A stretch of 64,000 bases of DNA. Source: Mytilus galloprovincialis (Eukaryota; Mollusca; Bivalvia; Mytilida; Mytilidae). The notes beneath the pieces were generated by a model. It did not search any database. It was given only the letters and a program-made list of their open reading frames with translations, and was not told where the DNA came from. The position numbers and the translations under genes are program-made. The DNA lies in the NCBI RefSeq assembly GCF_965363235.1, contig NC_134846.1:92684571-92748570 (forward strand). The letters are read 5' to 3'. Shown one piece after another: positions 1 through 60,115 of the stretch; the stretch's first letter is position 1; each line of letters begins with the position of its first letter.

Positions 1-1374
1 AAGGTAAGTCTGGACAACAAATCAGAGACCTACAGTGATCCTACCCTGAGACCTGTCTTCATGCTGAATAATTACAACTATATACTGAAATCTATAACAA
101 GGTAAGTCTGGACAAAAATCAGAGACCTACAATGATCCTACCCTAAGACCTGTCTTCATGCTGAATAATTACAACTATATACTGAAATCTATTACAAGGT
201 AAGTCTGGACAACACATCAGAGACCTACAATGATCCTACCCTAAGACCTGTCTTCATGCTGAATAATTACAACTATATACTGAAATCTATTACAAGGTAA
301 GTCTGGACAACACATCAGAGACCTACAATGATCCTACCCTAAGACCTGTCTTCATGCTGAATAATTACAACTATATACTGAAATCTATAACAAGGTAAGT
401 CTGGACAACAAATCAGAGACTTACAATGATCCTACCCTAAGACCTGTCTTCATGCTGAATAATTACAACTATATACTGAAATCTATAACAAGGTAAGTCT
501 GGACAACAAATCAGAGACCTACAATGATCCTACCCTAAGACCTGTCTTCATGCTGAATAATTACAACTATATACTGAAATCTATTACAAGGTAAGTCTGG
601 ACAACAAATCAGAGACCTACAATGATCCTACCCTGAGACCTGTCTTCATGCTGAATAATTACAACTATATACTGAAATCTATAACAAGGTAAGTCTGGAC
701 AACAAATCAGAGACCTACAGTGATCCTACCCTAAGACCTGTCTTCATGCTGAATAATTACAACTATATACTGAAATCTATTACAAGGTAAGTCTGGACAA
801 CAAATCAGAGACCTACAATGATCCTACCCTGAGACCTGTCTTCATGCTGAATAATTACAACTATATACTGAAATCTATAACAAGGTAAGTCTGGACAACA
901 AATCAGAGACCTACAGTGATCCTACCCTAAGACCTGTCTTCATGCTGAATAATTACAACTATATACTGAAATCTATTACAAGGTAAGTCTGGACAACAAA
1001 TCAGAGACCTACAATGATCCTACCCTGAGACCTGTCTTCATGCTGAATAATTACAACTATATACTGAAATCTATTACAAGGTAAGTCTGGACAACAAATC
1101 AGAGACCTACAATGATCCTACCCTGAGACCTGTCTTCATGCTGAATAATTACAACTATATACTGAAATCTATAACAAGGTAAGTCTGGACAACAAATCAG
1201 AGACCTACAGTGATCATACCCTGAGACCTGTCTTCATGCTGAATAATTACAACTATATACTGAAATCTATTTCAAGGTAAGTCTGGACAACAAATCAGAG
1301 ACCTACAATGATTCTACCCTAAGACCTGTCTTCATGCTGAATAATTACAACTATATACTGAAATCTATAACAAG
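1..1374 (+). repeat. 98-bp tandem array of an EXOC7 exon 3' part plus its 5' splice site
   Basis: Fourteen units, almost identical, each 98 bp (one is 97). Every unit encodes YSDP-LRPVFMLNNYNYILKSITR, the EXOC7 segment equivalent to human YEDPALSAIFLHNNYNYILK, and ends ACAAG followed directly by GTAAGT. Donor-type GTAAGT sits at 4, 102, 199, 297, 395, 493, 591, 689, 787, 885, 983, 1081, 1179 and 1277; the last unit ends in the weaker GTTTGT at 1375. Reading the exon frame through a junction gives an immediate AGG TAA stop, so only splicing at the first donor used keeps the protein open. The array is cut by the left window edge, so its full size is unknown. Confidence 0.95.
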
Positions 1375-4300
1375 GTTTGTCTTAATCAGAAAATATTGTA
1401 TACTTTGCTATATCTAAAAATCTGTTAAAAGTCATCTGACAAAGACATTATTTTTAAGATTAAGGTTGGGAAAATTTTTTTTAGTAATAATCATATGGAA
1501 AAAACGTTTTAAAAAAAAGGGAAACTAAATGTGTCAAAGCGACTTGAATGGCCCAGTCTGAAAAGTTGAAAAGTCTGCAATTTCAATAACACATGTGGAC
1601 ACAAACATGATGGTAGTCTCACATAAAAAAAAATCAGCTCAAAATCTGACTGCGTATAGAAAAAAAGTCTGTATAACTGTGATTTTCAACAATTTTCAAA
1701 GTTGTAAAGCCTTAATTTTGGCAAAAATTAGCAGAGCAGAAAAAAACTTAATCTTGATATGTAACTTATCATGAGTAATAACATTAACGGTACCAATTTT
1801 TCTGCACCAGATGCGCATTTCGACAATACATGTCTCTTCAGTGATGCTTGTGGCCAAAATATGTAAAATCCAAAGCTTATATAAAAGATGAAGAGCTATA
1901 ATCCAAAAGGTCCAAAAAGTATAGCCAAATCCGTGAAAGGAATCAGAGCTTTGCATGAGGGAGATACATGCCTTAATTTATAATAATTTTTAACTCGCAT
2001 ACCAAAAATCAGCCCAATATCTGAAAGCGTTTTGAAAAAAAGTCTGTATAACTGTGATTTTCAACAATTTATCAAAGTTCATAGCCTGTAATTTCGTCAA
2101 AAATGAGCCAAGGGGAACAAAACTTAAACTTCATCTGTAACTCATCATGGTTAACTCACATACCAAAAATCAGCCCAATATCTGAAAGCTTTTAGAAAAA
2201 AGTCTGTATTTATAACTGTGATTTTCAACAATTTATCAGTCCAAAGCCTGTAATTTTGGCAAAAATTAACCGAGCGGAATGAAACTTTAACTTGATGTGT
2301 AACTCATCATGGTTAACTCACATACCAAAAATCAGTCCAATATCTAAAGGCGTTTTGGTTTGTTGCGGAATGACAGAATGACGGAATTACAGAATTTCAG
2401 AATTACAGAATTTCAGAATTACAGAATTAGGGAATTTTGGAATGACTGAATTTCGGAATTACGGACAAGGGTAAAACTATATGGCACGGACAACTTTGTT
2501 GCGGGGCCATAAAAATGTGATGAAATCAACAAGATCTACAGACAAATCTTTATTAACAACATCTTTGGTTGACTCCTCATAAACTGTATTGTATTATAGG
2601 CCGGAAATGTTATGTATAGAGAGAACCTAAACATAGAAAAAAAGTAATCAGCAAAACAAGATAATAAATTATGTGAGGCGAACAAATATATTGATTGATT
2701 GATTGGTGTTGAATGCCACTCTCAATAATATTGTGCTATTTCATGGGAGGAGTCCCAGGAGAAAACCATGGACTTTAGTGGGAAAACTGACAATCCTAGT
2801 CAATTAAGGTTAGAATTGAGAGCACACACAGCAGTGAGGTTCTAACTCACAACCTCAGTGTTGACTGGCTAGTGATAACAGTAGTTGAACTACTTGGAAC
2901 ACTCATCTTTTGAGGCCTAGAGAACAATGGTATATACATATTATATATGTACATGTAACTTTAATTACAGTCAACCAACTAATTTTTGCAAGCAATTTAT
3001 CTTATGACTTTCTCGAATAGATGAATACTATAAACCCGGAAATTTTCGCACTGCCTTTATTTCGCTATTTGATAACACAATCTTAATTTGCGTCGTTTTG
3101 AATTCGCGATTTCCCTGTGACCTATATAAATATGTTTATAAATGATTTAGAAACAGAAATTTTCGCCATCGTTTTATTTTCACTTCTTACTTCTTACTGC
3201 GAAAATAGCAAAATTAAAACTGCTGTGAAAATTGAAGTATCCACTAAAATTATTTGGTTTACAGTAATCACTAATGTGAGTTAGTGTTAATTAACCCTGG
3301 TGTAGGTCAGTAGTGGCTTCTTACCATAATTAACCTCTATTGCAGGTCAGAGTTGACATATAACCTTAATTAACCTCTATTGCAGGTCAGAGTTGACATA
3401 TAACCTTAATTAACCTCTATTGCAGGTCAGACTTGACATATAACCTTAATTAACCTCTATTGCAGGTAAGAGTTAACCTGTGGCCTTAATTTGCAGTTAA
3501 GGGTTTACATGTAACCTAATTAACCTCTATTACAGGTCAGGATTGTTAAATTTGATTCATCTGTGTAATAAAGATGTTGGTCAGTACTATGAGGATCAGA
3601 TCCATGAACAGAAACGACTGTACTCTGAAAGGTAAGATCAGATCCATGAACAAAAACGACTGTACTCTGAAAGGTATGAGTAAATACTTGAACAGAAACG
3701 ACTGTTCTTTGAAATGTAAGAGAAGATCCATGAACAGAAACGACTGTTCTCTGAAAGGTATGAGTAGATCCTTGAACAGAAACGACTGTTCTCTGAAATG
3801 TAAGATCAGATCCATGAACAAAAATAACTGTACTCTGAAAGGTTAGATCAGATCCATGAACAAAAACGACTGTACTCTGAAAGGTATGAGTAAATCCTTG
3901 AACAAAAATGACTGTACTATGAAATGTAAGAGGAGATCCATGAACAGAAACAACTGTTCTGTGAAAGGTATGAGTAGATCCTTGAACAGAAACAACTGTT
4001 CTCTAAAATATAAGATCAGATCCATGAACAAAAATAACTGTACTCTGAAAGGTAAGATCAGATCCATGAACAAAAAGATTATATTCTGAAAGGTATGAGT
4101 AGATCCATGAACAGAAACGACTGTTCTCTGAAAGGTACGATCGGATCCATGAACAAAAATAACTGTACTCTGAAAGGTAAGATCAGATCCATGAACAGAA
4201 ATGACTGTTCTCTGAAAGGTATGAGTAAATCCTTGAACAAAAATGACTGTACTATGAAATATAAGAGAAGATCCATGAACAGAAACGACTGTTCTCTGAA

Positions 4301-7256
4301 AGGTATGAGTAGATCCATGAACAGAAACGACTGTTCTCTGAAATGTAAGATCAGATCCATGAACAAAAATAACTGTACTCTGAAAGGTAAGATCAGATCC
4401 ATGAACAGAAATGACTGTTCTCTGAAAGGTAAGATCAGATACATGAACAGAAACCACTGTTCTCTGAAATGTAAGATCAGATCCATGAACAAAAATAACT
4501 GTACTCTGAAAGGTAACATCAGATCCATGAACAGAAACGACTGTTCTCTGAAAGGTAAGATCAGATCCATGAACAGAAACGACTGTTCTCTGAAAGGTAA
4601 GATCCATGAACAAAAATAACTACTCTGAAAGGTAAGATCAGATCAATGAACAAAAATAACTGTACTCTGAAAGGTAACATCAGATCCATGAACAGAAACG
4701 ACTGTTCTCTATAGGTAAGATCCATGAACAAAAATAACTGTACTCTGAAAGGTAAGATCAGATCCATGAATAGAAACGGCTGTACTCTAAAAGGTGAGAT
4801 AAGATCCATCAACAGTCAAGACTATCCAGGAAGGAAGGATAAGATGTGTGTACAGTAAAGCATGTACTCTGAAAGACCAGATTTGATCTTTGAATAGTCA
4901 ATACTGTATTCTGAGATAATCTATGAAAGTTAAGATCTGATCCATAATGGCATTTATAAAGAGTCAAGACTGTATTTTGAAACACAAGGTCTGATCCATG
5001 AATAGTCAGAACTGTTTTCTGAAAGGTAAGATCTGTTCCATGAACAGGTAAGACTGTACTTTGAAAGGTCAGATCTGATATATTAATAGTCATGACTCAG
5101 AAAGATAAGATCTTATCCATGAACAGTCAATATATACATATATATATAAATAAAAGAAGATGTGGTATGATTGCCAATGAGACAACTCTCCACAAGGGCC
5201 AAAATAACACAGAAATTAACAACTATAGGTCACCATATGGCCTTCAACAATGAGCAAAGCCCGTACTGCATACTGTCAGAGCTGTATTCTGAAAGATTAA
5301 ATATGTTCCATGAACAGTCAAGACTGTATTGTGAAACGTCAGATCTGAAACATGAACAGTTAAGACTGTACTTTGAAATGTAAGATTTGAAACCTGAATA
5401 GTCAGAACTGTACTCTGAAAAATAAGATCTGAAACATGAACAGTAAAGACTGAATTCTGAAAGTTAAGATCTGGGCCATTGGTCATAACTTGACTCAGTA
5501 CTTGGAGTACAAATATGTGCTTGAAACATCAAATCAGTTTTCTGATTTCTGAGTCTGAATATGATAATAATGCTCAAATTTTTTACTACTGCAAGGCCAG
5601 GACTTTCTATCATAAAACTTAATCAGTACTCTTGTTACAAAATTTGTACTCGAAACACCAAATTCAATCTATTAATCAGTTGATTTTCCAATAATCATGC
5701 TCATGAATTTTATGACCACAAAGCCTGATCCCTGAACAGTAAAGACTACATTATGAAAGAGAATGCCTGCTCTGTGAACTTTTGAAAGTACAACTCTTTA
5801 TTTTCATCAAACAGAAAAGGCTGCATTCTGAGATATAAGATTCAATACAAGTTTGGTTATCTCATACTAATATTATTAAGAATTGTACTTATACAGTTCA
5901 GCAAGACTTACTTTGGAAATCCCTTTATGTATGACATTGCTTATTAGATTAACAGAATGACAGAAAGAATCATTATCAAATTTTATGACTATACATGTAC
6001 TTCTTTTTGAATTATGAAAGTAAAATCTTCAGTATTTTGTGTGGTGAACAGATAATTCTTATATTATTTATACATACACCTTTGTGCTTTGCTGAAAAAA
6101 ACTATACCTATATTTTTGATTCCTGGTTTTTTTTTTACAGTTGGAGTAAAGTCTTACATTATATCCTGGAGATTGATGAGCCATTGTCACAACAGAGATT
6201 AATGATGCCAGATGTTAAGGTAAGGTCATAATTTAGTATCCTAAGAGTTGCCACACGCACTTTAATTTGGAGTAAATACTAGAGTTATTATCATAACAGA
6301 GATTAATGATGCCAGATGTTAAGGTAAGGTCATAGTTCAGAATGACAAGAGTAAATACTAGGGATAGGTGAGCCATTGCCATAGCAGAGAATATAGATGC
6401 CAGATGTTAGGTATATAGAAAAGAAAAGGGTTGGTCATCATCAGCGCTCAATATTGTTATAAACATATTTATAGATATTTTTATTAATTGCAGTTAAAAG
6501 ACAAAGAGAAACAGAATATAAAGGATAAATTCTCTGTAAGTAAAAATTATCTTGAAATAAGACTGTCATTAAGTGGAAACATAAATTTGTTTAAACAATG
6601 AGTAGAAAAAGAGAACCTATCATTATTTATAATTCCCTTGATGATAACATTTATTTGACACATTTTGAAAATGTGTCAAAGAGGCAAAAACCTGACCAAA
6701 GAGCAGGCCACCAATGTGTCTTCAACACAGTGTAATGTGTACTGGTTCAGTACTCAGCAAAATGCCAATGCTAACGTCTTATACTTTAAAGCAAATTTTT
6801 TGAGATGTCAGGTTTTTTTAGATATAAGTAAATAATAAGAAGTAAAGAAGTAACTTGACAATCACTTGAAATCAGTCAACCAAAAAGTAAAAAAAAAATA
6901 TACCAAACTCCGCCGAAAATTCAAAATGGAAAGTCCCTAACTTTAAATGAACCAAGTAAGGAACACATCAATTAACAACTTCATTTTAACATTCGTATAT
7001 TTTGTATTTTTATTTCCAGGGTTTTAACAAAGAGCTTGAAGAGATTATGAAGAGTCAGAAAGGTTATGCTATTCCTGACCAAGAACTAAGAGAGGCCCTG
7101 AAGAAGGATAACAAAGACTTCATTATACCAAGATATAAAATGTTCCTAGAAAAGTATGAGAGAGTTAACTTTACCAAAAATCTGGACAAATATATCAAGT
7201 ATACTGCACCAGCTGTGGGTGTTATTGTTGATAAATTTTTTGACACATCTGCATAG
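1..7256 (+). CDS. EXOC7: EXOC7 (Exo70), exocyst subunit, C-terminal part; gene enters from the left edge
   Basis: Exo70 is the exocyst subunit that binds PI(4,5)P2 and tethers secretory vesicles at the plasma membrane. Exons visible: copies of one exon in the array 1-1374, then 3536-3631, 6141-6219, 6494-6535 and 7020-7256. With the AG carried from the preceding exon they give 456 nt, 152 codons including the stop, with all phases matching (2,2,0,0). Compared with remembered human EXOC7: YNYILKS matches YNYILKS, ERSWSKV matches QRSWLKV, LKDKEKQNIKDKF matches LRDKERQIIKERF, FTKNLDKYIKY matches FTKNPEKYIKY, and the FDTSA end is identical. Introns between the exons are filled with tandem copies of exon edges (separate entries). 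The N-terminal two thirds lie outside the window. Identity is near certain; which of the repeated first-exon copies is really spliced is unknown. Confidence 0.95.
1277..1374 (+). CDS. EXOC7: EXOC7 exon copy, last unit of the 98-bp array
   Basis: This unit codes for the NNYNYILKSITR segment and ends AG in phase 2, which joins exactly to G-TCA-GGA of the exon at 3536. Its donor is GTTTGT, poorer than the GTAAGT of every earlier unit. The functional exon may therefore be the first unit of the array, beyond the left edge, with all units here intronic. No acceptor for this exon is visible. Confidence 0.55.
1774..1990 (-). mobile_element. Hammerhead-bearing dispersed repeat, family R3
   Basis: A 217-bp insertion splits one 160-bp unit of the surrounding repeat cleanly. 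On the minus strand it carries the R3 body (ccttaatttataat, then ttcctttcacggatttgg type sequence) followed by a hammerhead core at 1847-1804. Related copies lie at 9945-10222, 10223-10390 and 50226-50500. The short open frame it contains is translated repeat and not a gene. Confidence 0.75.
1804..1847 (-). ncRNA. Hammerhead ribozyme core (R3)
   Basis: Minus strand: stem I GCATCA pairs with TGGTGC; CTGAAGA fits the catalytic CUGANGA box; stem II GACA-TGTAT-TGTC; GAAA; stem III is the self-complementary hexamer TGCGCA without a loop; then UC before the predicted cleavage site. All conserved hammerhead nucleotides are present. With so small a stem III, activity would be expected from a dimer. 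Confidence 0.8.
2690..2930 (-). mobile_element. Probable old tRNA-derived SINE
   Basis: On the minus strand a B-box-like GAGTTAGAACCTC lies in a tRNA-like head, followed by a body ending in a tgattgattgatt tail at 2692-2704. The A box is weak. A generic dispersed repeat is the alternative. Confidence 0.4.
3288..3535 (+). repeat. 40-bp tandem array of the 3' splice site of the next EXOC7 exon
   Basis: Units end in taacctctattgcag followed by GTCAG, the same junction as the genuine exon start at 3536 (tctattacag then GTCAGGATTG). GTCAG-type junctions lie at 3306, 3346, 3386 and 3426, with GTAAG at 3466, a variant at 3497, and the real exon at 3536. Each unit holds about 10 nt resembling the exon start and about 30 nt of intron end, so it presents a complete acceptor. 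The unit at 3466 has CAG followed by GTAAG and so reads as acceptor and donor at once. Confidence 0.9.
3536..3631 (+). CDS. EXOC7: EXOC7 coding exon (LLNLIHLCNKDVGQYYEDQ...)
   Basis: This is a 96-nt exon, phase 2 in and phase 2 out, with acceptor attacag and donor GTAAGA. It encodes SGLLNLIHLCNK and then DQIHEQKRLYSE, corresponding to the human SELIQLVAVTQK and EHIEQQIQTYQ segment in the C-terminal helical bundle. It is flanked by an acceptor array upstream and a donor array downstream, both built from its own edges. Confidence 0.93.
3632..5500 (+). repeat. 42-bp tandem array of the exon 3' end plus donor, with decaying tail
   Basis: About 27 clear units run to about 4800, then diverged units to about 5500, interrupted by a dispersed repeat at 5155-5262. 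The unit is GATCCATGAACAGAAACGAC, TGTTCTCTGAAAG and GTAAGATCA: the last 30 or so nt of the exon at 3536-3631 followed by its donor. Variant units (GTATGAGTA, GTAAGAGAA) alternate, indicating a higher-order repeat. In the EXOC7 frame each junction reads AGG TAA, a stop. Long open frames on both strands here are translated repeat. Confidence 0.93.
5155..5262 (+). mobile_element. Dispersed repeat R1 inserted in the 42-bp array
   Basis: Begins gaagatgtggtatgattgcc and continues through caactctccacaaggg to gccttcaacaatgagcaaag. The same sequence recurs at 9030, 20890, 36617, 41351, 44110 and 62780. There is no coding capacity. It is preceded by an AT dinucleotide run (5131-5152). Confidence 0.8.
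6141..6219 (+). CDS. EXOC7: EXOC7 coding exon (WSKVLHYILEIDEP...)
   Basis: This is a 79-nt exon, phase 2 in and phase 0 out, with acceptor ttttttttttacag and donor AAG-GTAAGG. It encodes (S)WSKVLHYILEIDEPLSQQ followed by RLMMPDVK, matching human SWLKVTDYIAEKNLPVFQ then PGVK. Its 3' end and donor are repeated twice downstream. Confidence 0.94.
6220..6411 (+). repeat. Two further copies of the preceding exon end plus donor
   Basis: The sequence acagagattaatgatgccag, atgttaag, GTAAGG of the exon end recurs with its donor at 6324 (spacing 104). A third, weaker copy (gtgagccattgcc ... gccagatgttag) has its donor at 6411 (spacing 87). It is a short version of the donor arrays elsewhere in this gene. 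Confidence 0.88.
6494..6535 (+). CDS. EXOC7: EXOC7 coding exon (LKDKEKQNIKDKFS)
   Basis: A 42-nt exon, phase 0 on both sides, with acceptor ttaattgcag and donor GTAAGT. The 14 residues match human LRDKERQIIKERFK. Confidence 0.92.
7020..7256 (+). CDS. EXOC7: EXOC7 last coding exon
   Basis: Acceptor ttttatttccag. It encodes 78 residues from GFNKELEEIMKSQKGYAIPD to YIKYTAPAVGVIVDKFFDTS-A and a TAG stop at 7254-7256. The human counterpart ends ...KYIKYGVEQVGDMIDRLFDTSA. The basic patch near FTKN...KYIKY lies in the C-terminal domain known to bind membrane phosphoinositide. Length and stop position agree with the vertebrate protein. Confidence 0.97.
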   Translation, partial: GFNKELEEIMKSQKGYAIPDQELREALKKDNKDFIIPRYKMFLEKYERVNFTKNLDKYIKYTAPAVGVIVDKFFDTSA

Positions 7257-7427
7257 AACATATGTAATGTAAAATTAATGAAGGTCACATGTGTCTATTG
7301 TTACAAGATGCTAGTGCTAATATTAATCTTGGATGTTTGGAATTAGTATTTATATATGATTTTGTCTCATAATTAGATACAATTAGTCTTCTTATTCTGA
7401 GTAATTAAGAAAGGGTATGTCAATAGA

Positions 7428-7575
7428 GGCGGATTAAGGGGGGCAGGGGGCCCTGGCCCCCTTTTTTGGAAATATTATGGTTGGTTATACAGGAAATCAC
7501 TGAAGCGTGACGGGAGTGGTTCCCTCTTAGGCAGTCAGTGGGCTCCACTTATGAAAAACTCTGGATCCGTCACTG
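7428..7575. mobile_element. Small MITE with GGCGGATTAAG / CTGGATCCGTC ends
   Basis: Begins ggcggattaaggggggcagg and ends aactctggatccgtcactg; the termini are near-complementary. A relative lies at 58656-58780 (ggcggattaag ... tgtatccgcc). Non-coding. Confidence 0.5.
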
Positions 7576-8144
7576 CTGTAATACTGGTATACTCCTGAAG
7601 AAGTCATCAACACTTACCAAAAAAATACTATTGTTTACTGTGAAAAATCACGGTGTCCTCTATCATGTCTATTTATGTGTAAATATTATTTTAGGGGTAA
7701 ACGGATGACGTTCAAATTCCTACTTACTAATGAAAAAGTTTAAATTAGCATTATTCCAGATGTTTTTTGTAATCTTTTTCTGTGCTTTATAACTTCAAAT
7801 TCGCATCTTTGCACAAATATGTACACTTCACATGTGTCAAGTTTGTAGTAGTATGTGCTTCAAGAAAACAGGAAAGAAATATATAGATAAACATGTATAA
7901 TTTTCTTATCTAGATTCTTGTGATTCAAATTTTGTTAAAGTTTAAAATTTGAATCTTACATCATGTACATCATACAAAAATCTAGATATCATCATATTAA
8001 AGCAATACAACATCACTCTACAGTTAGGATAAAACTCATGGGGGGGGGGAGGGGACATTGCCTTATATAATATTGGTAGCACAAACTGCAAAATTAAGGC
8101 GACAGTAGTTTACTAATGTTCATTATGAAGAGTAGTGGAGTAAG

Positions 8145-8150
8145 AATAAA
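8145..8150 (+). terminator. Candidate polyadenylation signal for EXOC7
   Basis: The first clean AATAAA after the stop, about 0.9 kb downstream (taagaataaatatatt). The stretch 7257-8145 would be 3' untranslated region with a small MITE inside. No transcript evidence. Confidence 0.4.
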
Positions 8151-8579
8151 TATATTTTGATTGTAAATTAATAGTGTGGTATTAATATATCACAGTGCTG
8201 AAATATCAATTGTGCAGTAACCATAATGTCATCAACACATTGAATTCATTTTATTTGTCATAAAATTGCTATTAGTAAGTCAAAATACAAATATACTTTT
8301 TAAAGTTGACACTACAAGATGTTAACTGGTAGATGTTTTATTGGGCCAAACAAATGGCATTATTACAGTTACTCCTTTAAGTTATTTATATGAATGTGCA
8401 ATATTATTTATATAAACTTATAAATCATTTTCTATCTTGTTATTTTATTTTTTTTCCATTCAAAAGGGATATGGTGTAATCATTCATGATACTAAAACTT
8501 TACAAATACATTTTAACAAACCTAGAGCAATACAACAGTGATTTCTATTGCAGTTCTGATCATGATTAAACTAATATTA

Positions 8580-9020
8580 TATTAAAACCCAAGCCACTCT
8601 CTGACATAATGTCAATGTGTCTCATAATCATGCCACTCTGTGATAAACTTTTCTATGTGTCATACATTCCCTTGATTCATTAGTATATAGTTTCATGTTA
8701 CTCTCTTGACAGATGATAATTGATGTAGATAAAATGTCTTTCCACTTTATGACCGATGATTTCAGTGTTATGTATAATTTTATGCCACTATCTCAACTAA
8801 TTTTTGTGGTATATAGAAAATTCAGGCTACACTTCAACAAATGATTTCAGTTTTATATGAAATTGCATGCCTTGTTGACAGATAGTTTCAGTTCTTTACA
8901 ATTACTTGTCACAATTTTTTCGAATTATATTTAAAATCTAGTTATATTTAAAATTTCATGCCACACTGACATTGTTAAAGTTGAACATAAAATTTTATGC
9001 CACACTGACAGATAGTTTCA
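8580..9020. repeat. Degenerate minisatellite, about 50-70 bp units
   Basis: Recurring words are tgccacactgacagatagtt, tcagttttatataaaattt and variants. Further diverged units occur at 10441-10550, so the array was probably split by the repeats inserted between 9028 and 10440. Confidence 0.5.
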
Positions 9021-9027
9021 GAGGTAC

Positions 9028-9145
9028 AAAAAAGAAGATGTGGTTTGATTGTCAATGAGACAACTCTTCACAAGAGTCCAAATGACACAGAAATTAACAA
9101 CTATAGTCCACTGTACAGCCTTCAACAATGGGCAAAGACCATACC
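9028..9145 (+). mobile_element. Dispersed repeat R1
   Basis: aagaagatgtggtttgattg ... caactctTcacaagag ... gccttcaacaatgggcaaag, as at 5155. Non-coding. Confidence 0.75.
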
Positions 9146-9589
9146 ACAGTGTACTATAGTATATATTTATTCCTGCTTCCTTCTGACGGAGGATTTTTTT
9201 TATCATTCAACTCTCTAACTGGTGTAATGCCACCATAGTTTCACATTGCATATAGGAAAATAACCATCATTGGAAATAAACCAATCAATTTTCTTTTTTT
9301 TTTTCCTGTGTACAAGCTTTAGTAACCATGTAACCCCAAGTTTCCAAAATATTCTGTAGAAACACCAACTAGAAAAAGGATGGTTTACTGCAATGAAATG
9401 TAGGATTAACTAGCTTCAACTGTCAAATTCATCTTTTTCACCCTTTTTTATATGCAACGAGTCGTTTGTTTTGCATATTTCTGTCATAATTCCTTGACTA
9501 CATGATACAGTTTAATTTAAATGGGAATTGATACAAAAATCCTTATATAAGAACACAAAAAGACTTTTTATGGATATGATTGGATATAT

Positions 9590-9790
9590 TAGAAAAGGGG
9601 TAAGCAGATCCTCTCCACATGTGGCACCCATCGAGTTGCGTATGTGATAACAAATCCGGTAAATAGTCTTATTCAGTAGGTCACATTTATGAAAGGGAAG
9701 GGGAATGTAGTTACGACGTAAGGAACATATCTGATATGATTTGAGAAACAGTTATATTATAACGGTCAACCAACTCTTGATGGCGTGCGT
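9590..9790 (-). mobile_element. 3' tail of a Penelope-like element (fragment)
   Basis: On the minus strand this carries the block tacgaagtgatgatttc ... ggtcaaccaactcttgatgg ... cacatgtggagaggatctgc. The same block follows reverse-transcriptase C-terminal remnants at 11620-11870, 19395-19760 and 28880-29250, and recurs at 10545-10790 and 56705-56950. No coding remains. Confidence 0.6.
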
Positions 9791-9971
9791 AAAATTTACG
9801 AAGTGATGATTTCTAAATGTTAGGTTGAAGTATAAAATTAGAATTTAAGACCTTAAACTGATACATTTTAGAAGTTAAACTTTTACCAGATGGTGCAAAA
9901 AGGTATTTGTCAATAAACTTATAACTTGTACAAAAAACCCTTACAATAACATTAACAGTAGCAATTTTCCT

Positions 9972-10015
9972 GCACCAGATGCGCATTTCGACAAAACATG
10001 TCTCTTCAGTGATGC
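9972..10015 (-). ncRNA. Hammerhead ribozyme core (R3)
   Basis: Minus strand: GCATCA, CTGAAGA, GACA-TGTTT-TGTC, GAAA, TGCGCA, UC, TGGTGC. All catalytic positions are present; stems I and II are fully paired. Confidence 0.8.
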
Positions 10016-10320
10016 TCGTGGCCAAAATATTTGAAATCCAAAGCTTATATAAAAGATGAAGAGCAATTGTTAAAAAGGTCCAAAAAGTATAGCCAAATCC
10101 GTGAAAGGAATCAGAGCTTTGCACGAGGGAGATACATTCCTTAATTTATAATAACTTCTAATATTTATAACAGCAAATTTTAATAGCACAAAAAATCCGT
10201 ATTTTCATACCAGTACCGAAGTACTAGCGGCTTGGTTGGTGATATTCTCGGGGACTAATAGTCAACCAGCAGAGGCATCGACCCAGTGGTAGTAATAACA
10301 TTAACGGTAGCAATGTTCCT

Positions 10321-10364
10321 GCACCAGATGCGCATTTTGACAAAACATGTCTCTTCAGTGATGC
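10321..10364 (-). ncRNA. Degenerate hammerhead core (R3)
   Basis: Same layout as 9972-10015 but GAAA is replaced by AAAA, which should abolish cleavage. Confidence 0.6.
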
Positions 10365-10544
10365 TCGTGGCCAAAAAATTATAATTTGAACAAACTTACA
10401 TCTTGTACACAACATATATATAATACAATTTCGTTTCAATCTGACATAATTTCAGTGGAATATATTATTCTGTGTCTTTCTGACAGGCAATGATTCATAT
10501 AGTTTCATTCCACTGTCTGACATCCTTTCAAATTTATGCATATT

Positions 10545-10790
10545 TCAGTGGCAAGTAGATCCTGCTCAACACGCGACACCCGTCCCGTTGCTCATGTTAT
10601 TACAACGCCGATAAATAGTCTAACTTGGTAGGTCACATTCATGAATAGGGAAGGGGATTGTAGTTACGACATAAGGAACATATCCGATATCATCGGTGAA
10701 ACGGCTATTCCAGAACGGTCAACAAACCCGTGATGGCGTCCGTAAAATTTACAAAGTGATGATTTCAACTTCATCATTTGGACTCTTGGT
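10545..10790 (-). mobile_element. 3' tail of a Penelope-like element (fragment)
   Basis: Second copy of the block at 9590-9790: cctgctcaacacgcgacacc ... ggaaggggattgtagttacg ... cgtccgtaaaatttacaaag. Non-coding. Confidence 0.6.
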
Positions 10791-10879
10791 CTAGGAAAAT
10801 GAAAATTCACAATTGAGAAAACGAAATCATCCCTTTTGTCGTAAAGTTTGTTTTACAAACGACCCTCATAGTCAATATC

Positions 10880-11110
10880 TCGATTATATAAGTCCTAATC
10901 AAATGGCAAAAATCTAAAGCCCAAGTACATCAAACGAATGGATAACTGTCATATTTCTGACTTGGCACAGGCTTTTTCTTTTGTAGAAAATGGTGGATTA
11001 AATTGGATTTTATAGCGCTAAACCTCTCACTTATAAGAATGTCGCATCAAATTCCATTGTATTTACAACGGTGCGTGAACAACTTTTCAAAACAGACATA
11101 ATAGGTAAAA
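10880..11110. repeat. Dispersed repeat R5
   Basis: Carries tcaaatggcaaaaatctaaa ... acatcaaacgaatgga ... tttctgacttggcacagg, recurring at 13045-13330, 41845-41960, 42880-42990 and 61385-61620 and inverted at 13400-13550. Non-coding. Confidence 0.6.
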
Positions 11111-11289
11111 TTGTCAAAATAGGGGTACATCAGCCAACGTATATACAAATGTCTTATATTCAGGAGGGCCAATTCATACTTTGTCAGATACCGGTACCAC
11201 TCTGATTCTAACAACTACTCTGAAAGAGAAATTATCAAGATGCTTGATTGCTTGATTGACAGCATCATAGCTACGTTTGGATGACTTGT

Positions 11290-11870
11290 TTCTGAACAAA
11301 CAATCGGCATTCCAATGAGAACCAAGTGTGCTCCTCTTCTTAGCGACCAATTATTTTATTCATTTGAGGTTAACTTCATACAGGATTGTCTTGTTAAGTG
11401 CATCTTTGTCTTCGAACTTGAATTAAAGTTAACAAAAGATACAGTAAAGTCTAACTCATATCGTGACTTGTATCTAGAAATTGACAATTGCAGCAGTATT
11501 CCAGCAGCGCCTTCATATGGACTATATATCTCCCAGGTAAAACGGTATTTCAGAGCTTGCATTTCCTATCATGATTACCTTGATGGACGGTTTCTGCTTA
11601 CAAGGAAACTATAAACGAAATGGAGTTCATAGCGGTGAATTTTATGAAAGCTATCAAGCATTGATTGACTGTTATGGATAAATCTGTTCGGTGACAATGA
11701 ATATGATCAAATAATAATCATAACCCGTCCGTCTCGAATGTGACCTACCGAATTAAACTCATCATCGGATTTGTTCTTTTACTTACAACACGACCGGTGC
11801 CACATTTGGAGCACATGTAATCATCCCTAGTTGTGTTTAAAGCGGGTTATTGTTGCTTGCTTTTGTGTGT
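11290..11870 (+). mobile_element. Penelope-like reverse transcriptase fragment and 3' tail
   Basis: Reads IGIPMRTKCAPLLSDQ, then after a gap PSYGLYISQ and a FLLTRKL-like stretch; these are landmarks of Penelope-like reverse transcriptase (IPMGTNCAPL..D and SYGVYISQL). Internal RT sequence is missing, including the catalytic YxDD region, so it is a decayed remnant. Followed by the tail block with ctaccgaattaaactcatcatc. Confidence 0.75.
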
Positions 11871-12164
11871 TGTTTTATACCGGTAACAGTCTCGTCTATC
11901 CCTTATCATACAAAACGTTTTTCTAATTAAAATTGTCACATTCACTAGTTAAAACATTTATTTTTGTTGTCTGCTATACGGTCGGGTTGATGTCGCTTTG
12001 ACACATTCCCATTTCCTTTCTCAATTTTATTTGACCCATGGTTTATGAATTTGGTGATGTCTTGGTGTTAGATATCAATTACCAATCAGCTATTGTGAGA
12101 TGACTTATCACTTGATATGAATTATCCATTTATCTTATAGAAATAACAAGTTTTGTGATCTCTT

Positions 12165-12330
12165 CTCTGGAGATTATCCACGGTTTAAGTCTAGTTCTAG
12201 TTGCTCAGTATTTAGTTTTCTATGGTATTTCAGGTTTTTGTCATGGCATTGTTGTTAGTTTGTCTTTTACTTATGACGTTCTTTTGTCACCTTTCGCCCG
12301 AGTCTCTTTTATAAAATTAGACATCATTCA
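12165..12330 (+). repeat. Dispersed repeat R4 fragment
   Basis: Diverged copy of the sequence that reads atcgaaaataaactgacaac / gatcaaagagggacgaaaga on its other strand (compare 31970-32085). The open frame here is not a gene. Confidence 0.4.
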
Positions 12331-13044
12331 AAAACTAATATTCGGCTTGAACATTCTTGATGACGGCGAATCCAGAAATGCACTTCGAATGCATGGCATT
12401 TAAACAGTGTTCATTTTATTATGGCGACAGTATAGTTAGCCGATGCTCACATCTCGTAACTCGATTAAGAAAAGAAATGGCAAGGTAAAAATCTTAGGGT
12501 ATCGCATGAACTCCAAAAGAGAGAACGATTGAAATATATTTGTTCTTTTTTGATAAACAGGATTTTTTTTTATCAATATGATGTCATGTTGAACATTCAT
12601 ATCTCAGATGAAACAAAATGTCTAAACTTGCATTTCCCATAATGATTATCGTGATGGAGGGTTTCTCCAACAAGTAAGCTTTCAAAACAAGTGTTTCGAG
12701 TGCTGAAGTTGAAGTCATCGTATCAACAATTTTCGGACATGATCAGTTGACCGTTATGGAACATCTTTTTCACAGATGACTATGGATATTTTGTTATTTG
12801 TCGTATCCGCCGTCCTTAACTGCGTATGAAGCATGATAAGACTTATCACCGATATTTTAAGACTTTATCTGCCTGACCTACCTTTAATCCAGAGTGAATC
12901 TGTCAATAAATATACTTGATTCTTTAAAATAATAAGTAGTAATCACCGGTTTTCTCTCAACATTTTTTTAATGATTGAACCGTAAAAACAGTATGATAGT
13001 AAACTATGAATTATCTGAAACAATTTTAAGAATATAGTTGTCTT

Positions 13045-13555
13045 GAAAGAGGGACGAAAGATATCAAAGGGACAGAAAGTTACAAAGTAAAGTAAGAAAA
13101 ATACCAAACTTCAAGAAAAATTCAAAACGGAAAGTTCCTAAACAAATGGCAAATGCAAAGCTCAAACACGCCAAACGAATGGAAAAACACGTATCATATT
13201 CCTGACTTGGTACAGGTATTTGGATGGCGGATGAGTCTTTGTTTGATGGCTTGCTAAAACTGTCACTTGTATGACAGTCATATAGAATTCTATTATATTG
13301 ACAGAAACCTTGTGTCATAGCTTGCTAAAAGTCTCACCTGTATGACAGTCACATATAATTCTATTATATTACTAACGATGTTGTCAAGATAATTGAATTT
13401 GATGCGACTGTCATACAAGTGAGAGTTATAGCGTCTAAAAGCCAGGTTTAGTCCACTTTTTTCCAAATTTGAAAATGTCTATACAAAGTCAGAAATATGA
13501 CAGTTGTCCGTTCGTTTGATGGTTTTATTAATATTTGATTTTACCATTTTATTAG
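13045..13555. repeat. R4/R5 repeats in inverted arrangement
   Basis: 13045-13330 reads gagggacgaaagatatcaaa ... aaacgccaaacgaatggaaa type sequence; 13400-13555 carries its reverse complement (agtcagaaatatgacagttg, cgttcgtttgatgg). The two arms face each other across about 70 bp containing two copies of a ttgctaaaa-ctcac-tgtatgacagtcata motif (13250-13370). Confidence 0.55.
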
Positions 13556-13559
13556 GGAC

Positions 13560-13815
13560 ATTTTTTTTTTTTTTATAAATTTCCTGTTTACAAAACATTG
13601 AATTTGTCGAAAAACTAAGGATTTTCTTATCCCAGACATAGATTACTTTAGCCGTATGTGGCACAACTTTTTGGAATTTTGAATCCTCATTGCTCTTCAA
13701 CTTCGTACTTGTTTGGCTTTATAAATATTTTGTTATGAGCGTCACTGATGAGTCTTGTGTAGACGAAACGCGCGTCTGGTGTACTAAATTATAATCCTGG
13801 TACCTTTGATAACTA
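13560..13815 (+). mobile_element. Hammerhead-bearing dispersed repeat R2
   Basis: About 255 bp from ataaatttcctgtttacaaa through cttcaacttcgtacttgttt to the hammerhead core and tataatcctggtacctttga. Full-length relatives lie at 15272-15530 and 38300-38545; partial ones at 34326-34420 (-), 39582-39770 (-) and 63925-64000 (-). Confidence 0.8.
13739..13782 (+). ncRNA. Hammerhead ribozyme core (R2)
   Basis: Stem I GCGTCA pairs TGGTGT; CTGATGA; stem II GTCT-TGTGT-AGAC; GAAA; stem III self-complementary CGCGCG; UC at the cleavage site. All core nucleotides are intact. Confidence 0.85.
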
Positions 13816-14089
13816 TTTACAGTCATAATAGGTAAAAATGCCAAACATTGAGGTTCATCAGTTAATATTGTTATATCCTCTTAATCGCATCAAATAAACA
13901 AATATGACAACAAAGAAAAACAAACATAGACACTCTATAGACAAACACATAATCCTGGTACCTTTTATAACTATAGGCAAAAATGAAAGACAAGAATAAA
14001 AAAAAAATGACAATAGCAAAAAATTGAAAACAAATCGTTTAATAATTTCTTGCGTCCGAAACGCTTTTCAAAATTGCAAAAGGGAGGAA

Positions 14090-14175
14090 TATATAAAAGA
14101 GGGACGAGAAATAACAGAGGTAAATATCGAACCACGCCAAAAGGACTTAACATTAAAAGTGAAAAAAATATACAA
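14090..14175. repeat. Dispersed repeat R4 fragment
   Basis: aagagggacgagaaataaca, gaggtaaatatcgaacc. Short and diverged; the rest of 13816-14515 shows nothing recognisable. Confidence 0.4.
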
Positions 14176-14519
14176 AGACATCTAAAGAACACTATCATAC
14201 GCTAATAAGATGATAAACAACGTCGGTACCTAGAATATATACTTCTTGGTATTTTCCATGAATCTTTGAAAATAAGGACGAGACGTTTTTGACATAACTA
14301 TTGCTCATCAACTTTCTGCTCATATACTGGCGACGTTTATAAAGCCTAAACAGCGGTTGCAAGCTCTGGAATACCGATTCATCATCAATGAGTTTGGAAA
14401 TACTATGAAGTAAGTATATTTCTGTTACGGTGTTGGAAGATCGATTCGTTTTTCATAGATTCTGGTACAGATAATTAACTTTTATTTCTGGAGGATAAAT
14501 TAATGGAACCCATTCAAAA

Positions 14520-15080
14520 AAAGGTTTGAGCATGATTAATGCATCAATGGTATGATACTTAACACCTAACGGGAGAATTTGTACTTGACTTTGATGTGAC
14601 GAATCAGTTTAATTGAGGTCTGGAGCTGGCATGTCAGTGAATGGTAATAGTCCTTTGTTCATTGATGTATCATTGTCATTTTGCTTAGTTTCTTTTGATA
14701 CCTATTCTGACAATCGACTCGGACTTCCGTTTAACTGAGTTTAACTGTGTATTGCTATGTGTTTCTTTATTCTACAGTGGCTAGAGGTATAAGGAGTAGG
14801 TTGAATACCTATTGGTGGCCTTCGGTTGTTGTCTGCTCTTTGGTCGGGTTGTTGTCCCATTTCCATTCTCAATTTTATCTGAATGTGAAATTAAATTATC
14901 TGGCTTCTTTGATCTTCTTGTATTTGACAAGTTTCTATAGAAACTTCGACTCCATGAGTGGTCGGCAAGAAGAGGTGCACAGTTAGTTCCCATATGAATG
15001 CAAACATTTTCTGAAAAAGACAGCCTCCACGTTTAACAAATATATGTTCAATAAGAGACTCCAGCATACCTATCACTAGT
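14520..15080. mobile_element. Penelope-like element pieces: 3' tail (+) and RT fragment (-)
   Basis: 14570-14880 matches the 3' tail that follows the RT at 24541-24760 (taacgggagaatttgtac, tcagtttaattgaggtctgg, agctggcatgtcag). 14900-15076 on the minus strand reads IGMLESLIEHIFVKRGG ... MGTNCAPLLADH, an RT fragment. Both are short decayed remnants. Confidence 0.6.
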
Positions 15081-15271
15081 TCCTCCGTGTAGCTTGATTT
15101 ACCTTTTTGTTAACTATTAACAACATTTATCTGCAAAATGTTACTCGGAAAAAAAATCTTGTCGAATCTTCAAACGTTTTAAATCAATTTTGTCAAGTTC
15201 AAATTCATTCACATAAAATATGAATACACAAATATACAAAGAAACACTATTCTTCCTTTGTTTGTTTAATT

Positions 15272-15530
15272 TTTTTTTTTATATAAATTTCCTGTTTACA
15301 AAACTAGGATTTTTCGAAAAATTCGGGATTTTCTTATCCCAGCAATAGATTACCTGAGTTGTGCTTGGCACAACTTTTTTGGAATTTTGGGTCCTAACTG
15401 CTCTTCAACTTTGTACTTGTTTGGCCTTAAAATTTTTTTATCTGAGCGTCACTGATGAGTCTTATGTAGACGAAACGCGCGTCTGGCGTATTAGATTATA
15501 ATCCTGGTACCTTTGATAACTACTTATACC
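15272..15530 (+). mobile_element. Hammerhead-bearing dispersed repeat R2
   Basis: Same 250-bp sequence as 13560-13815, same orientation, 1.7 kb downstream. Confidence 0.8.
15446..15489 (+). ncRNA. Hammerhead ribozyme core (R2)
   Basis: GCGTCA with TGGCGT, CTGATGA, GTCT-TATGT-AGAC, GAAA, CGCGCG, UC. Intact core with the best stem I of the R2 copies. Confidence 0.85.
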
Positions 15531-15772
15531 TTGAAACATTAAAACAGTTTCAACAGCAATTGCTTATTCTTGTTTTTTCAAAGAAACCAGTTTTATAATT
15601 GTACGTCAAACGCACGTTTCGTACCAAATTCTTCAGTAACGCTGAGATAAAAATAAAAGTTAAAAAAAGTCCAAACAAAGTACTGAGTTAAAGAGCATTA
15701 AGGTAAAACATAGAAAATAATTTTAAAATTTGATTGCTTTCTATAATCAAACAACTTTAAATATAGTTTTTC

Positions 15773-15778
15773 TTTATT
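15773..15778 (-). terminator. Candidate polyadenylation signal of the Kazal-domain gene
   Basis: AATAAA on the minus strand, about 50 nt past the stop codon at 15826-15828. Confidence 0.5.
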
Positions 15779-15825
15779 AGTGTAAAAATCTAATTGGTAT
15801 AAAAAGGTTGAAATTTTGCTCATTA

Positions 15826-28382
<12,557 letters not shown>

Positions 28383-54209: not shown

Positions 54210-54894
54210 ACGTAAGTATATAAATTGTTATTAAAGACAATAAAATGTATGCATCTAGAATAAAGGTTGTCCACTTTTATATTAGGAATAAAATATTTTT
54301 TCAAATGCAACAGGATATTTTTATGTACCTGGAAATTACTTTTGTAAAATAAAGGCAACAGTGGACGTAAAACAATTTTCAAGCATATGTATGATTCTGT
54401 TAAACCTTGTTAGGCATTATTTCGGAAATTCCCTAATGCTGTTTGTGGCTTGTGTATTAAAAGTGAAAACATGTGAATAAACACGTTCTCATCTAAAATT
54501 AGAAATTCTCATATGCCACTCAACTTATTTTTGTGTGGAAAGGCTACAACATTTGGGATTATTGATATATTTCGCGTTAAAAACTCACTGTATAGCATTA
54601 ACAATATTTGTTTGTCATCTTTTGACAAGATTTGTGCTCTTTCTTTGTAAATGCGAACCAAAATTTCATCATTTTATCATAAACCTTTTTCATAGGATGC
54701 TAGAATGAACTATTTTAACACCAAGGAAATAGTTCAAGTAAATAAACCTTAAAAAGATACTCATTCTGCATTTTTGTTATACTTTTATGTCATTTTTGAA
54801 ATATATACATAACATAGCATTTACCCATCTTTATTTCAGATGTTTCAATGAAAAGAATGCTAAATTAAGTCTTTTTTCTCTTACTTGTATTTGT

Positions 54895-55740
54895 CAGGTC
54901 TGTATGCCTGCATACCACCCTGGTGTATGCTAAAACCTCACTGTATGTGTATACTAGAATTTGTCAGGTCTGTATGCCAGCATACCGACCTGGTTAATGC
55001 TAAACTCTCACTCTATGCATATACAAGTATTTTTCAGGTCTGTATGCTAGCATACCGACCTGGTTAATGCTAAACTCTCACTCTATGCATATATACTAGC
55101 ATTTTTCATGTCTGTATGCTAGCATACAGACCTGGTTAATTCTTAACTCTCACTCTATGCACATCCTAGTATTTGTCAGGTCTGTATGCTAGCATACCGA
55201 CCTGGTGTATGTTAAACTCTCACTCTATGCATATACTAGTATTTTTCAGGTCTGTATGCTAGCATACCGACCTGGTGTATGTTAAACTCTCACTCTATGC
55301 ATATACTAGTATTTTTCAGGTCTGTATGCTAGCATACCGACCTGGTTAATGCTAAACTTTCACTCTATGCATATACTAGCATTTTTCAGGTCTGTATGCT
55401 AGCATACCGACTTGGTTAATGCAAAACTCTCACTCTATGCACATCCTAGTATTTGTCAGGTCTGTATGCAATCATACCGACCTGGTGTATGTTAAACTCT
55501 CACTCTATGCATATATACTAGTATTTGTCAGGTCTGTATGCTAGCATACTGACCTGGTGTATGTTAAAAACTCACTCTATGTACATACAAGTAGTTGTCA
55601 GGTCTGTATGCTAGCATACCGACCTGGTGTATGTTAAACTCTCACTTTCTGCGTATATAAGTATTTGTCAGGTCTGTATTCCTGCATACAAATCTGGTGT
55701 ATTTAGAACCTTTAATATATTTATTTTGGCATAGTTAAGT
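54895..55740 (+). repeat. 70-bp tandem array of a 28-bp palindrome
   Basis: About 13 units with CAGGTCTGTATG at 54895, 54965, 55035, 55107, 55177, 55247, 55317, 55387, 55457, 55529, 55599 and 55669, then a weak one near 55739. CAGGTC.GTATGCTAGCATAC.GACCTG is a near-perfect inverted repeat. The rest of the unit is ttaaactctcactctatgca, tatactagtatttttcag. Confidence 0.95.
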
Positions 55741-59892: not shown

Positions 59893-60115
59893 CCCAGGTT
59901 CGTATGCTATCATACAGACCTGTGAACTACAACATCTGATTCAATATTCGCTGTTCTGCATACACCAGGTGCGTATGCTAGCATACATACCTGAGAAATA
60001 CAATGTATTAATTAAATTTAGACATTAGCATACACCAGGTACGTATGCTAGCATACAGGCCTGAGAAATGCAAGTTAATTTATTACAATTCAGTTCAGCA
60101 TACACCAGGTGTTAA
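59893..60115 (-). repeat. Inverted counterpart of the palindrome array
   Basis: Three to four units of caggt(g/t)cgtatgctagcatac...acctg, spaced about 65-75 bp. On the minus strand the units read like the 54895-55740 array (cctggtgtatgctaa following the palindrome). Confidence 0.85.

Follow-up and report, generated by a model that had tools for sequence, protein, structure and literature searches.

Tandem arrays whose repeat unit runs across an exon–intron junction recur in at least 12 unrelated genes of this Mytilus galloprovincialis genome, at donors and at acceptors, and with gene-specific units where these were checked. The units are 24–104 bp long and are arranged head-to-tail in 2 to 37 copies. 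On balance, we favor the reading that these are minisatellite-like arrays that arose from short local tandem duplications spanning exon–intron junctions, with joints near splice sites, and that splicing partly hides them from selection. The window referred to below is the whole stretch of DNA that was analyzed, 64,000 nucleotides in length.

RESULTS

Most tandem arrays of EXOC7 span a splice junction

The exons of EXOC7 are colinear with mouse Exo70 (spliced models; E 1.9e-86 and 1.6e-36), and the EXOC7 protein encoded in the window is 97% identical to a deposited M. galloprovincialis EXOC7 across 77% of the query. A 98-bp donor array occupies window positions 1..1376 (+), where 14 of its 17 copies are found; the exon heading this array (...KVLSALGLNLSNKSETYNDPTLRPVFMLNNYNYILKSITR) lies upstream of the window at L007:9686-9806, and the first array copy starts at L007:9722. 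Further downstream, the exon at 3536..3631 (+) (SGLLNLIHLCNKDVGQYYEDQIHEQKRLYSES) carries repeats at both edges. Its acceptor side is formed by a 40-bp array at 3287..3535 (+), called by TRF as two rows (3287-3474 and 3323-3491), whose unit bears ...CTATTGCAG/GTCAG, and its donor side is formed by a 42-bp array at 3594..~5473 (+), whose unit consists of 38 bp of exon end plus GTAA and in which 37 copies were detected at a 60% identity threshold. The next array-bearing exon, at 6141..6219 (+) (...EPLSQQRLMMPDVK), is followed by a donor-spanning duplication of ~104 bp at 6183..6411 (+), with two to three diverged copies, for which TRF made no call. Upstream of the window, EXOC7 has three more donor arrays with units of 49, 60, and 72 bp (TRF score ≥100).

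We compared the position of these arrays with random placement, using our own estimates of gene length (23.4 kb) and junction number (34) and omitting TRF rows scoring below 100. Seven of the nine EXOC7 arrays spanned a junction, compared to 0.93 expected (P ~1e-6), which bears out the suggestion of the first-pass annotation that there are more junction arrays than chance would supply. When only TRF-called arrays were counted, that is, without the 104-bp duplication, the ratio was 6/8 against 0.79 expected (P ~1e-5). As EXOC7 had been selected because its arrays had been noticed, the newly fetched sequence provides the fairer test, and there all three arrays (TRF score ≥100) spanned a donor (P ~6e-4). 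The local array density was high, amounting to 15.3 per 100 kb (19 arrays) compared to 2.9 (4 arrays) in 14 arbitrary 10-kb stretches. An assembly artefact is unlikely, since the copies are diverged, as in the 42-bp array, and two arrays hold large insertions. One insert, of ~860 bp, lies in the 72-bp donor array at L007:7325-8185, has inverted ends (GTAACACTCCCAAACGTGTCC) and internal AACGTGTCC repeats, and looks MITE-like by eye. Separately, the acceptor edge of the exon bearing the 49-bp array seems to be present a second time upstream, in diverged form, at L006:7500-7700.

Arrays in the Kazal-domain gene and elsewhere in the region

In the Kazal-domain gene, the first coding exon (MDKNIKKSVTLSYRLVLIVLILFEHPA) is located at window 28301..28382 (-), and its donor heads a 66-bp array at 22842..28340 (-) with 16 copies and a related 53-bp pair at the far end. 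This array is interrupted by a 4.3-kb insertion at ~23496..27823 with reverse-transcriptase-like open reading frames (ORFs) in opposite orientations, which by eye we take to be Penelope-like. Because the insertion splits the array, the array seems to be the older of the two. At 18214..18419 (-), an 86-bp segment present in 2.4 copies covers the start of a first coding exon (MAIFAAVSVITAATTTTLHVVQS...), with a putative acceptor. The first-pass annotation had listed six junction arrays in EXOC7 and the Kazal-domain gene; TRF or reading recovered the 98-, 42-, and ~104-bp donor arrays and the 40-bp acceptor array of EXOC7, together with the 66-bp donor array of the Kazal gene, while the 86-bp acceptor array at 18242-18420 was not established.

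Several other features of the region were recorded. A (TGA)49 microsatellite at window 20470-20617 starts ~11 bp into the intron beside the donor of a Kazal-gene exon. In a deposited M. edulis protein, Kazal-gene exons are continuous with sequence resembling the 518-residue ORF at 15826-17382; the exons and this ORF (window 15826-28382) could therefore belong to a single gene, or the protein could be a fused model. Two mutually similar arrays, at 54882-55702 and 59894-60110, are built from 70-bp units whose core, TGCTAGCATAC, is palindromic. Upstream, a 35-bp array of 26 copies at L005:3012-3915 lies at the apparent exon start of a minus-strand proline-rich gene, and its unit consists of TTTACAG followed by sequence resembling the exon start. 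This gene is presumably WBP11-like; a Pfam search with it returned no match.

Junction-anchored arrays in the rest of the genome

The genome (1.38 Gb in chromosome-sized contigs, one assembly) was searched for two exact copies of a donor word spaced 34–64 bp apart. The donor word AAGGTAAGT gave 339 pair matches compared to 86 for the reversed word, and CAGGTAAGT gave 262 compared to 137; a permuted control word, AAGGATAGT, gave 110 and its reverse 94. The word rates rest on a composition model, which predicts that chance alone would produce about two occurrences of the reversed control for every one of AAGGTAAGT. As matches inside one array are not independent, we then grouped the matches listed for C1 to C5:81 Mb into tandem clusters, defined as at least two matches or as one match with an internal repeat in the text, omitting isolated pairs. 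The two donor words yielded 16 and 17 clusters and the two control words six and seven, that is, 33 compared to 13 (P 0.002, uncorrected for word frequency). Single-match clusters made up two of the 16 for AAGGTAAGT and one of the six for the control word TGAATGGAA, and the 137 reversed matches of CAGGTAAGT were left unclustered.

The upstream edge was read for the 16 and 17 donor-word arrays, and in the second set 16 of 17 were readable (L072 fills its stretch). With the first word, the start of eight of 16 arrays coincided exactly with the donor of an exon that looked coding and had an acceptor ahead of it. With the second word, nine of the 16 readable arrays began at such a donor, and one more (L075) was an acceptor array on the opposite strand. 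In total, 17 of 32 donor-word arrays were anchored at coding-looking exon donors, plus the one acceptor array. Database searches supported seven of the 17 donor exons, namely those of PTGR1, mucolipin, poly(A) polymerase, BORCS8, RasGEF, UBR4, and a thrombospondin type-1 (TSP1) exon, and the remaining ten were judged by eye on an open frame and splice signals. Pfam returned no family for the donor exons L023, L035, L062, L064, L067, L076, and L070 and weak matches only for L026 and L074; L077, which is too short for the database tools, is presumably CAMKK-like. Unit sequences are not shared among the listed anchored arrays. A dispersed element, introner, or satellite family was considered as their source and is not supported, a 27-mer of the 42-bp EXOC7 unit having two matches, both in that array. 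By eye, the unanchored array L030 resembles a dispersed repeat.

The control set comprised 11 arrays, of which L050 was unreadable and L046 shows one end only. None of the ten readable control arrays had a coding-looking exon edge in its unit as judged by eye, and L045 starts ~7 bp into an intron without spanning the donor. The difference in anchoring between donor-word and control arrays gave P ~0.001 (calculated by hand), a contrast that is partly built in, since a donor word seeks donors. Open frames did not discriminate, as a frame of at least 30 codons reached the array edge in eight of the ten readable control arrays; Pfam searches with the control frames gave no credible match, and one repeat-borne match fell below the Pfam cut-off. 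With database-supported exons only, the comparison was 7/32 for donor-word arrays against 0/10 for control arrays and was not significant. An anchored fraction near one half can count as enrichment only where most occurrences of the donor word are not true donors.

On the acceptor side, the word TTTTGCAGG showed no excess of pair matches (56 compared to 78 for the reversed word). Nevertheless, five of ten fetched acceptor-word arrays ended at exon-like sequence, the other five having no visible exon at the end, and the idea of a donor-only phenomenon was dropped on this ground. The acceptor arrays at PDE4, BCKDHA, and P450 exons have good database support, another exon matched prostaglandin reductase 3 weakly (E 0.095), and another was judged on its frame only, with no match in Pfam. 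Thus, ten array-bearing genes with database-supported exons were found beyond EXOC7 and the Kazal gene. The recurrence in unrelated genes that the first-pass annotation had noticed in two cases therefore holds more widely, and what stands is that junction arrays are not peculiar to these two genes.

The copied segment tends to end just beyond the donor

To locate the ends of the copied segments, we compared the second copy with the real exon in 16 genome-wide donor arrays (eight per word, L070 omitted) and divided each unit at the junction accordingly. The intron part was 2–9 bp long in 11 of the 16 arrays, compared to 3.1 expected if the junction could fall anywhere in the unit (P 2e-5), and was at most 15 bp long in 13 of them, compared to 5.4 expected (P 8e-5). 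EXOC7 and the Kazal gene showed a weaker trend, with an intron part of ≤15 bp in 4/7 arrays (P 0.045) and of ≤9 bp in 1/7 (P 0.59). Over all measured donor arrays, the segment ended 2–15 bp from the junction in 17 of 23. The copied donor segment is thus mostly exon and often ends just beyond the donor element. We read this as a joint that is drawn to the donor region, either through microhomology or through something acting there. An alternative possibility is that selection removes segments reaching farther into the intron, since these might bring along acceptors and make the copies exons; the origin of the joint concentration may be either mutational or selective.

Conservation and predicted use of the extra splice sites

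The window holds ~75 extra array copies, which agrees in order of magnitude with the earlier estimate of about 60 decoy splice sites, although fewer have an intact site: by motif count, GT is retained in 28 of the 37 copies of the 42-bp array. In this array, the most diverged one, the conservation of the donor word was 0.856 compared to 0.846 for the rest of the unit (GT 0.82), and the 98-bp array showed hardly any difference either. The donor word was slightly better conserved than the rest in the 72-bp array (0.94 compared to 0.86) and in the 66-bp array (0.97 compared to 0.92). Overall, the comparison gave no clear support to the idea that the decoys are conserved.

When we predicted the consequence of using donor 2 in 23 arrays, 13 added a stop, three shifted the frame, and seven added an open in-frame piece, so that the protein would be broken in 16 of 23 cases (12/15 in the first group and 4/8 in the second). 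Deposited M. galloprovincialis EXOC7 models have exon-proximal joins and no array-coded residues at four array-bearing donors, and a deposited M. edulis relative joins exons 1 and 2 of the Kazal gene at the exon-proximal donor; these deposited Mytilus entries are gene models, not RNA, and their assemblies may or may not carry the arrays. A 24-nt in-frame microexon encoding RLMMPDVK, at window 6300..6323 (+), matches copy 2 of the ~104-bp array, and two of the M. galloprovincialis EXOC7 models on deposit contain these eight residues.

DISCUSSION

The reading that we favor, short local duplications across junctions followed by tolerance, can be put as a sequence of steps. A duplication would arise by end joining or slippage, the joint on the intron side being attracted to the donor region, and the array would then grow through unequal exchange. 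It would survive if the spliceosome, for the most part, paired those sites that flank the real exon most closely, the extra copies leaving with the intron, while duplications lying wholly within coding exons would be removed by selection. On this reading, the decoys serve no obvious purpose, but a copy could turn into a microexon. The first-pass annotation had offered two explanations, a shared mechanism that duplicates splice-site segments and preferential tolerance of arrays carrying splice sites. Joints favoring splice sites fit the breakpoint data, and tolerance is also needed, given that use of the decoy would disrupt the protein in 16 of 23 arrays; neither explanation is proven.

A plainer account would do without any junction preference: tandem duplications are abundant in the genome, a few percent of them inevitably span junctions, and those that are tolerated persist. 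Eleven arrays with a period of at least 20 in 14 arbitrary 10-kb stretches scale to very many genome-wide, and in the region studied here the array density is five times higher. Moreover, the position of the genuine exon at one end of every array, a point raised in the first-pass annotation, is uninformative, since any tandem duplication across a junction has this geometry. However, chance would have placed fewer than one of the EXOC7 arrays on a junction, where six or seven of eight or nine are found, including all of those in the newly fetched sequence; donor-word clusters outnumber control-word clusters in the same territory, with the P value uncorrected for word frequency; and the 3ʹ joints crowd beside the donor, which uniform placement would not produce. 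We therefore consider chance with tolerance rather unlikely as the whole explanation.

The arrays might instead be functional, with U1-binding or competing sites that tune splicing, prevent premature polyadenylation, or make isoforms. Such a role would suit the seven of 23 measured donor arrays that are in frame and open through donor 2, the deposited microexon that matches an array copy, and the slightly better conserved donor words of the 72- and 66-bp arrays, but the donor words of the 42-bp array are hardly better conserved than their surroundings and most decoys would be damaging if used, which makes functional decoys quite improbable in our view. Intron gain through tandem duplication, the Rogers model (PMC4974935), appears very unlikely as the origin of the arrays. 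Their units consist largely of exon and end in a short GTAAG tail, as in the available parts of the accounts of that model and of the fission-yeast 24-nt repeats (PMC3629103), but the partner splice sites in EXOC7 lie outside the arrays, beyond unrelated intron sequence, and arrays also occur on the acceptor side. A further step would be that splice sites themselves direct the germline duplication, so that its 3ʹ joint falls on the boundary of the 5ʹ splice-site element (+2 to +9). A U1-bound or otherwise protected end of the nascent RNA, the end of an R-loop, or a break at the donor could, for instance, prime or template the extra copy. We hold this to be an unlikely extension of the local-duplication reading.

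If splice sites did direct duplication, mussel genes would be subject to a mutational process coupled to splicing, one that extends introns with ready-made sites and seeds microexons. Even if the joints were simply drawn to splice sites, the arrays would represent an unrecognized route to longer introns and microexons and would link splicing signals to DNA rearrangement. In either case, because many of the alternative sites would destroy the protein, the 2 to 37 related splice-site copies beside real exons in conserved genes amount to natural competition experiments on site choice by the spliceosome.

The arrays share with minisatellites and variable number tandem repeats (VNTRs) in genes the head-to-tail arrangement of tandem copies, a gene-specific sequence, and a unit length in the minisatellite range of about 10–100 bp (24–104 bp here); they differ in that the unit often spans an exon–intron junction and the genuine exon edge forms the terminal copy. 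Tandem exon duplication and the birth of microexons are known processes, and one array copy indeed appears as a 24-nt exon in deposited models, but elsewhere only the exon edge is copied here and not the whole exon. No description of junction arrays as a class was found in the open-access literature, including the accessible parts of PMC12783039, PMC4974935, PMC3629103, and PMC11782384, which is no proof that the class is unpublished. The nearest described idea, as far as the available parts of the two reports go, is intron gain by tandem duplication, in which the duplicated copies supply both ends of the new intron (PMC4974935; PMC3629103), with a fission-yeast case of multi-copy 24-nt repeats (PMC3629103). 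Common to both situations is a mostly exonic duplicated segment that carries splice signals (PMC4974935; PMC3629103). The difference is that in EXOC7 an array adds length to an intron that has its other splice site at a separate location, and that both donors and acceptors are affected here. Helentron elements carry satellite-like arrays in bivalves, according to the accessible part of PMC7492417; these too are short tandem arrays dispersed in a bivalve genome, whereas here every anchored gene examined has its own unit.
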